Part shown: positions 51,471 through 54,642 of the stretch, piece by piece
Numbering within the stretch: the stretch's first letter is position 1
Layout of the letters: the number at the start of each line of letters is the position of its first letter
Made by a program: the position numbers and the translations under genes
Source of the DNA: Polynucleobacter sp.
GTDB lineage: Bacteria > Pseudomonadota > Gammaproteobacteria > Burkholderiales > Burkholderiaceae_D
Length of the DNA stretch: 64,000 nt
Assembly (NCBI GenBank): GCA_021737945.1
Contig: JAIPCX010000005.1
Span: forward strand, 1 to 64,000
Direction of reading: 5' to 3'
Notes under the pieces: generated by a model
The model's input: only the letters and a program-made list of their open reading frames with translations
The model's database searches: none
Told to the model about the DNA's origin: nothing

Positions 51471-51549
51471 AGACGGCACTGTGAAGTTCAAGTGCGTCAT
51501 TTTACCCGAGGGTGGGCTATGCGCAGGAAGAATACAGGACGATAAAGGC

Positions 51550-51649
51550 GAGCCTTGTCTGCGGCACTTGCAGTATATGGCTGTGGCTGCTTCGTTCCCG
51601 ACCTGACCAGGTTGACCATGCCACAATGCGCAGGGGCCCGCCAGGCTCG
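51550..51649 (-). ncRNA. ffs: Signal recognition particle 4.5S RNA
   Basis: The reverse strand carries the conserved SRP RNA apical domain, GGTCAGGTC-GGGAA-CGAAGCAGCC (51579-51608 region), which binds Ffh. The terminal arms CGAGCCT (51643-51649) and AGGCTCG (51550-51556) pair, giving an RNA of about 100 bases as one long hairpin. The position just upstream of dnaX is common in proteobacteria. Exact ends are inferred from pairing. Confidence 0.93.
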
Positions 51650-51706: not shown

Positions 51707-53230
51707 TCAACCCAGATTCAAGCCCTGCCATATAGCATCAACGCGCGATTTCACTTCTGCATCCATTGCAATCGTGCGCCCCCATTCACGCGACGTCTCA
51801 CCGGGCCACTTGTTGGTGGCATCGATGCCCATTTTGCTACCTAAGCCACTCACCGGCGACGCAAAATCAAGATAATCGATCGGCGTGTTATCAACGAGTG
51901 TGGTGTCACGTATAGGATCAACGCGCGTAGTTATGGCCCAGATCACTTCTTTCCAGTCGCGTATATCGACATCATCATCCACCACCACAATAAACTTGGT
52001 ATACATGAACTGCCGCAAAAAACTCCACACGCCGAACATCACGCGCTTGGCATGGCCCGGATAGGATTTTTTTATCTGCACCACCGCCATGCGGTAACTG
52101 CAGCCCTCGGGCGGTAAGTAAAAGTCGGTAATCTCGGAAAACTGCTTTTGTAAAAGCGGCACGAACACTTCATTCAATGCCACACCGAGCACCGCAGGCT
52201 CATCCGGTGGTTTACCAGTGTAGGTCGAGTGATAAATAGGGTTGCGTCGCATCGTAATGCGATCGACGGTAAACACCGGAAACCAATCCTGCTCATTGTA
52301 ATAACCCGTATGGTCACCAAAGGGACCTTCGAGCGCATGTTCAAAACAGGTATTCGGTGGTGGCGATACGCCATCGGGCACGATACGCTCTGAATCAGTC
52401 TCCGGGTAAATATGCCCCTCTAAAACAATCTCAGCCGAGGCTGGCACACGTAACTCGCTGCCTATCGCTTTGACCAACTCGGTCCGACTGCCGCGCAATA
52501 AGCCAGCAAACTGATATTCCGACAAACTGTCTGGCACTGGAGTAACGGCTCCTAATATAGTGGCGGGGTCTGCGCCCAGTGCCACGGCTATTGGGTAGGG
52601 TTTGCCAGGATTGGTCAGGCAATGTTCGCGGAAATCCTGCGCCCCACCCCGATGAGCCAGCCAACGCATGATGAGCTTATTGCGACCCAGGACTTGCTGG
52701 CGATAGATACCAAGATTTTGACGCTTCTTATTAGGGCCTCTAGTAATAACCAGACCCCATGTAATTAGAGGAGCAATATCGCCCGGCCAACAGTGTTGAA
52801 TAGGTAGGCGCGACAAATCGACATCCGCCCCCTCCCACACTATCTCTTGGCAAGGCGCCGAACTCAGTTCCTTAGGCGCCATGTCCCAGACGGACTTAAC
52901 GAGTGAGCCCAGACCCAGCACATCACGAAAGCCTTTTGGGGGCTCCGGCTCTTTGAGCCTAGCTAACAGGTGCCCGATGCGCCTTAACTCGCCGACATCA
53001 CTGGCTCCCATGCCCATGGCTACCCGCTTGGGTGTTCCAAATAAATTACCCAAGACTGGAATCGTGTGGCCGGTGGGTTGATTAAACAAAAGGGCCGGGC
53101 CGCCTGCACGCAGCGTTCGATCGCACAGCTCTGTCATTTCCAGATTCGGAGAGACAGGAACATCAATCTCGACCAAGTCACCAGATTGTTTCAGCTTGGC
53201 AATAAAATCTCTCAGATCAGAATATTTCAT
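51707..53230 (-). CDS. ubiD: 3-octaprenyl-4-hydroxybenzoate decarboxylase UbiD
   Basis: A prenylated-FMN-dependent decarboxylase of ubiquinone biosynthesis. The 507 residues cover the usual length. The signature [11 protein letters not shown] (about 308-318) contains an acid residue near the cofactor. [35 protein letters not shown] and [21 protein letters not shown] are further family marks. A short Pro-rich insertion ([12 protein letters not shown]) precedes the signature and is seen in betaproteobacterial members. The maker of its cofactor, ubiX, is not in the window. The gene stands alone, divergent from the transglycosylase leader. Confidence 0.93.
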
Positions 53231-53327
53231 CAGTTTTTGAGTTTTTTCAAAGTGGTATGTAGATGCTTAGCTAATTATTCTAAGTAGCTGATTTTATGGG
53301 TAATTGCTAGTTAATACATAAAATGTC

Positions 53328-53342
53328 ATAACTTATAGTTAT
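53328..53342. promoter_or_regulatory. Palindrome upstream of the transglycosylase promoter
   Basis: ATAACT-TAT-AGTTAT is a perfect 6-bp inverted repeat centred about 62 bases before the inferred transcription start, the position typical of a class I activator site. The sequence does not match the FNR or CRP consensus. Confidence 0.4.
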
Positions 53343-53362
53343 AGATTTTCTTTTATTCAGTA

Positions 53363-53391
53363 TTGACTCGATATAAACGCAACCATACAAT
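53363..53391 (+). promoter_or_regulatory. Sigma-70 promoter of the transglycosylase leader
   Basis: TTGACT (53363-53368), a 17-bp spacer and TACAAT (53386-53391): one of the best promoter matches in the window. Transcription should begin near 53398, giving a leader of about 370 bases before the ATG at 53767. Confidence 0.8.
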
Positions 53392-53397
53392 CCGCAA

Positions 53398-53592
53398 AAT
53401 TTTAAAGGACAGCGGCTGGAGCGATCCAGACCAGAGGGGGAAGTAAAGCTGTCCCGCAACCAGGGGGAATCGTTCAAATTTGTTCGGTTCAATGTAAGCC
53501 CCACAAAAGATTGCTTTCGCACCCAAACCGGTGCGTACCAAAGCAACACCGACATTTGCAAGGCCTGCAGTTTGGCTGCAAATGATTTTTTT
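53398..53592 (+). ncRNA. Structured leader RNA ending in an intrinsic terminator (riboswitch/attenuator or sRNA candidate)
   Basis: Helices visible in order are as follows. GGACAGC/GCTGTCC (53407-53413 with 53448-53454) encloses CTGGA-GCGA-TCCAG (53416-53429), which has a GNRA tetraloop. GGGG/CCCC (53463-53466 with 53499-53502) encloses GAATCG/CGGTTC. TTGCTTT-CGCACC pairs with GGTGCG and AAAGCAA (53511-53546). Last comes the terminator hairpin at 53553-53584 with T7. GGGGGAA occurs twice (from 53436 and from 53463). No match to a known riboswitch class could be made by eye. The remaining 174 bases to the gene carry nothing that I recognise until the ribosome-binding site. Confidence 0.65.
53553..53592 (+). 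terminator. Intrinsic terminator inside the transglycosylase leader
   Basis: CATTTGCA pairs with TGCAAATG (8 bp), with an inner GCC/GGC pair, followed after one base by seven T. No plus-strand gene lies between the upstream promoter and this terminator, so it must end a short leader transcript. Confidence 0.8.
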
Positions 53593-53766
53593 GTCTCGCG
53601 GTGAATTGAAGCACGAAGCACGCTTGCAATTGGCCTCATCTCAGAGTGCCTGACAAAACATAACTGGCGACTTGCCATGCTAGCAACGGAGATTGCAGCA
53701 TCGCAGGGAAGACACCAGGTAGGTTTTGCCAGGCGCTTTGAGGGCCGCGAAGATTCAGGAGGTAAT

Positions 53767-54642
53767 ATGAATACTCGACACAAAGTAGCAGCGTTGGTCA
53801 GTGCAGATAAATGGATGCAGCAACTCGGCAGTATCAGCAGCAGCCTGGCTTCTAAAGCTCACAACGCATTAACGTTGCTGGGTTTGGCCTCGATCGCAGC
53901 CATGACCCTAATGTTTTTCAGGCCAGAGCTGACCGATCGTATCAAAGTACTCTCCCCTTTTTGGGATGAATACAGTTATGAGAGTCAATCGCGTGAACTC
54001 GGCTATGTAGACGTTGCTCAGTTTCAGAACAACGCCGCAGATGCAGCACTATCAGCCAGCGACTCACCTGCCAATTCTGCATCAGCAAAAGAGCAGGTCT
54101 ACGTCATCAACTGGATCGCGAAGCGGTATCGTATCGCTCAGTCGGCCAGCAAGATGCTGGTAGAAACTGCGTATAGCTCAGCACACGAAGTCAAACTTGA
54201 TCCGCTGCTAGTGCTCTCTGTTATGGCGATTGAATCCCGTTTCAATCCTTTTGCAGAGAGTTCCGTTGGCGCTCAAGGTCTGATGCAAGTCATGGCCAAG
54301 GTTCATCAAACGAAATTTTATGACCATGGCGGCAGTAAATCGGTGTTGAATCCTGTGGCTAACATTCAGGTGGGTGCTCAGATTCTAAAAGATTTGATCC
54401 GCCGCTCGGGCTCGGTGGAAGCTGGCTTGAAGCTGTATGTCGGCGCTGGCAACTTGGAATCGGATGGTGGCTATGCTGCCAAGGTGTTAGCTGAATACTC
54501 GCGACTACAGGCCGTAGCCAGTGGCAAGCGGGTACCAACGTTTACACCACAGGCACCTGCGCCGGAAACTGATGGCCTACGCGAAGCCAAAGCACTGGAA
54601 GAATCAGCGCCTATCCGCATGCATGTGGACGAGCCCGCCTGA
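53767..54642 (+). CDS. Membrane-anchored lytic transglycosylase (SLT domain)
   Basis: A 291-residue protein with one N-terminal membrane helix (ALTLLGLASIAAMTLMFF, about 34-51) that should anchor it with the catalytic domain in the periplasm. The SLT domain covers about 135-245, with catalytic E156 in AIESRFNP, then GAQGLMQVMAKVHQTKF and a glycine-rich LKLYVGAGNLESDGGYAAKVL. It cleaves peptidoglycan strands. AGGAGG (53757-53762) five bases before the ATG is the best ribosome-binding site in the region and fixes the start. Its expression seems to depend on read-through of the leader terminator. A strong terminator follows. Confidence 0.9.
   Translation: MNTRHKVAALVSADKWMQQLGSISSSLASKAHNALTLLGLASIAAMTLMFFRPELTDRIKVLSPFWDEYSYESQSRELGYVDVAQFQNNAADAALSASDSPANSASAKEQVYVINWIAKRYRIAQSASKMLVETAYSSAHEVKLDPLLVLSVMAIESRFNPFAESSVGAQGLMQVMAKVHQTKFYDHGGSKSVLNPVANIQVGAQILKDLIRRSGSVEAGLKLYVGAGNLESDGGYAAKVLAEYSRLQAVASGKRVPTFTPQAPAPETDGLREAKALEESAPIRMHVDEPA

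Follow-up and report, generated by a model that had tools for sequence, protein, structure and literature searches.

The window analysed here, a stretch of 64,000 nt, carries on its plus strand a gene for a lytic transglycosylase, whose divergent neighbour encodes a UbiD decarboxylase. Relatives of the transglycosylase (E 1e-20 or better) occur in 247 of 255 genomes of the family, representing 44 of 44 genera; the family of the sampled relatives appears to be Oxalobacteraceae, presumably within the order Burkholderiales. A structured leader of ~370 nt lies between a promoter and this gene, with the following elements:

53363..53391, plus strand: promoter TTGACT-17-TACAAT with a GC-rich discriminator, close to the consensus and resembling the -35 to -10 stretch in relatives
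53407..53454, plus strand: P1, 53407-53413/53448-53454 (GGACAGC/GCUGUCC, 7 bp), with a same-genus compensatory series
53416-53429, plus strand: GNRA hairpin CUGGA-GCGA-UCCAG inside P1, from the fold
53463..53502, plus strand: P2 region, GGGG/CCCC with inner helix GAAUCG/CGGUUC; related closing pairs in the same genus, by eye
53511..53546, plus strand: P5, UUGCUUU/AAAGCAA (53511-53517/53540-53546) with inner CGCACC/GGUGCG (53518-53523/53530-53535), from fold and alignment
53553..53592, plus strand: P6, hairpin CAUUUGCA/UGCAAAUG followed by U7, terminator-like in the genus of the window; a family counterpart exists
53596..53750, plus strand: 3' domain, closed by P7 UCGCGG/CCGCGA (53596-53601/53745-53750), folding z -4.7
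53604-53631, 53634-53659/53723-53743 and 53677-53701, plus strand: P8, P9 and an inner hairpin, all within the 3' domain
53757..53762, plus strand: Shine-Dalgarno site AGGAGG, 6 nt after P7, conserved in same-genus leaders
53767..54642, plus strand: SLT-domain lytic transglycosylase gene, 291 aa (PF01464, E 5.5e-15)

The original prediction, made from this sequence alone, is borne out in most of its anatomy: the near-consensus promoter, the GNRA-capped helix inside a 7-bp helix, the second helix, the two-part 13-bp hairpin (53511-53546) and the strong AGGAGG with its ATG at 53767 are all present. The promoter agrees with 10 of 12 consensus positions and has one match in its own genome with up to three mismatches allowed; the region has three promoter-like sites, where shuffled sequence gives 1.0 on average (sd 1.3). 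A promoter was also seen in 70 of 80 upstream regions from other genera, by a loose pattern and without a control. The 3' domain was missing from the earlier description. A 200-nt piece of the leader folds better than its shuffles (z -2.6; two of 200 were as good), and the strongest folding belongs to 53596-53766 (z -4.7), the 3' domain reaching the Shine-Dalgarno site. An in-frame ATG at 53677 would extend the transglycosylase by 30 residues (53677-53766); since it lies inside a conserved RNA domain, gene callers may place the start too early. Further upstream, a bacterial small SRP RNA gene (51544-51642, minus strand) precedes dnaX, and in six of the ten relatives' loci scanned the transglycosylase likewise has such a gene ~2 kb upstream.

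Conservation within the genus and the terminator-like hairpin

Fourteen leaders, from promoter to start codon, were aligned from 13 of the 21 genomes of the genus. The opening ~200 nt of these leaders diverge quickly. Over the final ~170 nt, other genomes of the genus remain 72-96% identical to the window, and the 3' domain (53596-53750) is the best conserved part of the leader; DNA similarity reveals it in 16 of 21 same-genus genomes and in 0 of 35 other relatives. P1 could be aligned in nine of the 14 leaders and is hard to make out in the remaining five; by eye it shows a compensatory series: GGACAGC/GCUGUCC, GGGCGGC/GCCGCCC, GGGUAGCC/GGCUACCC and GGCAGCC/GGCUGCC.

Pairing was counted from P5 onwards, over 68 pairs, using the structure of the window's own row as the reference. 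Altogether, 87.8% of cells pair, compared with 35.6-42.4% when the partners are slid, although support is uneven within P5 (81.6% of cells paired in the outer helix, only 54.8% in the inner CGCACC/GGUGCG). Changes on both sides affect 21 of the 68 pairs, against 10.9 in shuffles, none of 500 of which reached 21. Under a tree-aware null pairing is still kept (0.878 against a null maximum of 0.648), but the both-side count was reached by 48 of 200 nulls, and the G score, at 194.2, lay below the null mean of 239.8 and was attained by 184 of the 200.

The claim of a complete internal terminator stands only in part. The P6 hairpin (53553-53584) and T7 (53586-53592) are there, but one terminator-like site in the region against 0.5 expected is, taken alone, not above chance, and the U-tract is seen mainly in this genus. 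Runs of five or more T follow in 12 of 14 same-genus leaders versus 11 of the 80 other-genus leaders with a located tail, the scan windows having differed slightly between the two groups; in 63 of those 80 the run is three or less. The conserved linker AUUUCUGAU, common outside the genus, stands in place of the U-tract. Transcription attenuation is therefore at most a local elaboration: in the genus of the window, part of the transcription may end at the U-tract that follows P6.

A pseudoknotted core RNA in the family

The family was sampled with 80 upstream regions fetched from 42 other genera, many of which have in common the core UUCACGGGGUCGGGGCCCCACAUGACAUUUUAAGGAGUGUUUUCAAAAGGCGUCUGCCUUACCCCCGAAAA. 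A model of this core, R1, was seeded by alignment A2 (19 leaders chosen for few indels); of 102 leaders in all, 13 without a P3 anchor were left out of the MAFFT alignment. Counting its seeds, R1 matches 85 of the 100 upstream regions given, spread over 31 of the 42 other genera; it has no match at E 0.001 in the other 11 sampled genera or in the genus of the window. In most sampled genera the order is P1, a pseudoknotted core (P2, P3, P4), P5, P6 and P7. The core is a hairpin, P2, with a UCGGGG loop that can pair with CCCCGA further downstream, directly after P4; P3 contains a ribosome-site-like AAGGAG and carries GGA in its loop.

Because the C-runs of the core were wrongly placed by MAFFT, pseudoknot pairs were counted from independent G-run and C-run anchors and on A6, an alignment of 19 hand-chosen leaders. 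Five or more pairs can form in 84 of 85 leaders. With one row dropped for want of a run, 84 of 84 leaders scored have a standard pair next to the G/C run (80 C-G, 4 U-A), and 62 of 82 have one at the following position. Compensatory changes include UGGGGA/UCCCCA, UCCGGG/CCCGGA and UUUGGG/CCCAAA. In A6, 28 cells have both-side changes against 9.0 in shuffles, and 95.0% of cells are paired against at most 56.8% when slid. Variant pseudoknot loops fit the leader's own partner with a mean of 5.33, little above the 5.17 for the consensus partner.

Tree-aware covariation summed over the structure exceeded every null in both alignments used (63.3 against a maximum of 33.0 in 100 nulls for A6; 297.2 against 82.5 in 60 nulls for A3). 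Among single pairs, A3 has two, in P2 and in P4 respectively, that are significant over all column pairs; in A6 none is when all column pairs are tested, and three are, one of them in the pseudoknot, if structure pairs alone are tested. When partners were swapped between leaders, a helix's own partner scored better than a swapped one for P5 (8.03 vs 7.07, n=69), P6 (6.06 vs 4.62, n=65) and P7 (5.07 vs 4.46, n=45); P2 taken by itself fell short of significance, with 36 of 500 swaps reaching its score. Compensation is clear in P7 (UCACGGC/GCCGUGA, UUCGUGG/CCACGAA, CACGCC/GGCGUG), which closes directly upstream of the Shine-Dalgarno site. Across the family the helices covary, as those of a structured cis-acting leader should; for the genus of the window the picture is mixed.

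R1 has no match to the window's own leader, and of the 14 same-genus loci only two are hit at the right place (L004, E 0.038; L010, E 0.52, which is chance level). The window leader and the family have in common the promoter, position, gene, P6, P7, ribosome site and the word before P6, which reads AAGCAACACCG in the genus of the window and AAGCAACTCCG in other genera. The P2 region of the window is unlike the family P2 and occupies the place of the P2 hairpin and pseudoknot of other genera. Given shared features but weak R1 scores, we regard the window leader as a probable divergent member of the family, placed there by synteny and helix order more than by score.

Mode of action

R1 was also run over 399 genomes of the same order: ten matched, all in the family and with one copy each. 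Filters in this large search were strict, so that weak matches can be lost, and at least three family members were missed, the window's own genome included. In nine of the ten matches, those with gene coordinates listed and hence checked for position, the core lies on the same strand ~180-290 nt upstream of the extrapolated gene start, the fixed place ahead of one gene expected of a cis-acting leader. One genome (G009) has two transglycosylase paralogues (C15, C69; L027, L020), with promoter and leader on each copy. A core found once per genome, ahead of the transglycosylase where position was checked, and a leader on each G009 copy favour action in cis.

From these sequence comparisons we consider it likely that the transglycosylase mRNA carries a structured 5' leader that acts in cis and is part of an Oxalobacteraceae RNA family for which no described counterpart was found; most likely it controls the adjoining enzyme gene. 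Of the original alternatives, a riboswitch or attenuator on the one hand and an sRNA on the other, the cis-acting leader with a riboswitch-like build is retained, the terminator is not general, and the sRNA has become the less likely option because the core was found only ahead of the transglycosylase where its position was checked.

Such an sRNA would be ~195 nt long, end at the P6 hairpin and act on targets of its own, the gene being reached by read-through. The promoter with its GC-rich discriminator, the hairpin with at least five T in 12 of 14 same-genus leaders and the very conserved core sequence in other genera would suit it. We nevertheless judge it improbable, as the U-tract is absent from most other leaders, the structure runs on to the ribosome site, and the core, over the 399 genomes, is confined to this family and to its place before the transglycosylase in the nine of ten matches checked.

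It is also unlikely that the leader senses nothing and acts as a passive structure, either stabilising the mRNA or holding the ribosome site open. Such a role agrees with the lack of a demonstrated alternative fold and with an Undibacterium MAG that has only ~60 nt between promoter and gene; near-invariant unpaired letters and the conserved pseudoknot suggest instead specific binding or tertiary contacts. That MAG (L088, 2285-2380), in which promoter and gene are kept, represents a natural leader loss.

Much less probable still is a temperature-responsive leader of the cspA kind, its Shine-Dalgarno site masked by a U-rich linker. In many genera UUCAGGAG is a possible partner for the conserved UUUCUGA linker, which lies at the base of P7, and predicted pairing between linker and Shine-Dalgarno site is as high as 0.97 in single leaders. 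On the other hand, the Shine-Dalgarno side differs in Massilia-type leaders (AAAGGGG) while the linker is nearly unchanged, little such pairing is predicted in the genus of the window, and RF01766 has no match. Chance folding or a coding stretch is very improbable: covariation contradicts it and, despite a 158-codon minus-strand frame in the window, open frames are not kept among the 14 leaders of the genus, in which the longest on the minus strand has from 38 to 137 codons.

For the preferred cis-acting leader, the fold, perhaps on binding of a ligand or protein, would set the efficiency of ribosome start on the transglycosylase. Predicted pairing of the Shine-Dalgarno site with the linker averages 0.24 over 87 family leaders and 0.04 over the 14 of the window genus, values obtained without a control and by a script that chose the wrong ribosome site in some rows; they are no more than suggestive of masking by UUUCUGA, which may be possible in many genera but not all. 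Binding of CsrA at the GGA loop was set aside as unlikely, since PF02599 had no match in any of 42 same-order genomes, the window's own included; it was found in three of 14 named control genomes. As a tentative proposal, the leaders may form a new class of riboswitch or protein-sensing RNA confined to Oxalobacteraceae, in which the pseudoknotted core, the AAGGAG loop of P3 and the UUUCUGA linker would switch transglycosylase translation on a cell-wall or growth signal.

To our knowledge, little is known of RNA control of transglycosylases in Gram-negatives. Here a family-wide cell-wall gene is preceded, in 31 of 42 other sampled genera, by a structured RNA that has a pseudoknot fold of its own, and the R1 model and the compensatory pairs make the leader directly testable in benign laboratory species.

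Comparison with known RNAs

The leader was originally described as unassigned, and so it stays: no Rfam family matches it at gathering score in the window or in the relatives' loci scanned, and its helices are kept in relatives. Five weak rows in 53230-53800 (mir-3117, mir-3927, S15-Methanomicrobia, Bp1_738 and speF) are far below gathering; Bp1_738 on the minus strand of a relative's locus (L011) gave 24.9 bits against a gathering score of 45. A table of 20 Rfam-named Herbaspirillum sRNAs in PMC7011215, whose full list numbers 117, does not include this leader, and the northern probes of that study have no good match to the leader loci. The published literature searched, including passages of PMC6337395, yielded no description of the leader, which is not proof of absence.

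A known housekeeping RNA, raised at the outset as the finding that would overturn the prediction, is not indicated by Rfam. 6S RNA (RF00013) is similar in size to the leader, but has no match here; the 6S RNA of this genome lies elsewhere (G000:C3:14776-14953, 72.2 bits). Some ydaO riboswitches control cell-wall hydrolases, and the leader resembles the c-di-AMP riboswitch (ydaO, RF00379) in its GGGGGAA words. The suggested kinship with ydaO and cobalamin riboswitches was not upheld. There is no Rfam match to ydaO at gathering in the window nor up to E 10 in 53230-53800, and none to cobalamin in the window, up to E 10 in that region or up to E 0.5 in ten relatives' loci. By eye, the first GGGGGAA occurs in five of the 14 aligned same-genus leaders, the window's included; the second and CTGTCCCGCAAC occur in the window leader only. 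A c-di-AMP link to the transglycosylase leader is unsupported here.

The cspA leader (RF01766) is a long structured leader in which control of the ribosome site is possible. The present leader is likewise long and structured, but differs in the type of gene and in having no Rfam match. From the H-type pseudoknot riboswitches preQ1 and SAM-II the family appears to differ by two hairpins inside the long loop, and the window has no Rfam match; the family would be like them in a short hairpin whose loop pairs downstream, in an A-rich stretch after the pseudoknot and in its position in a leader.
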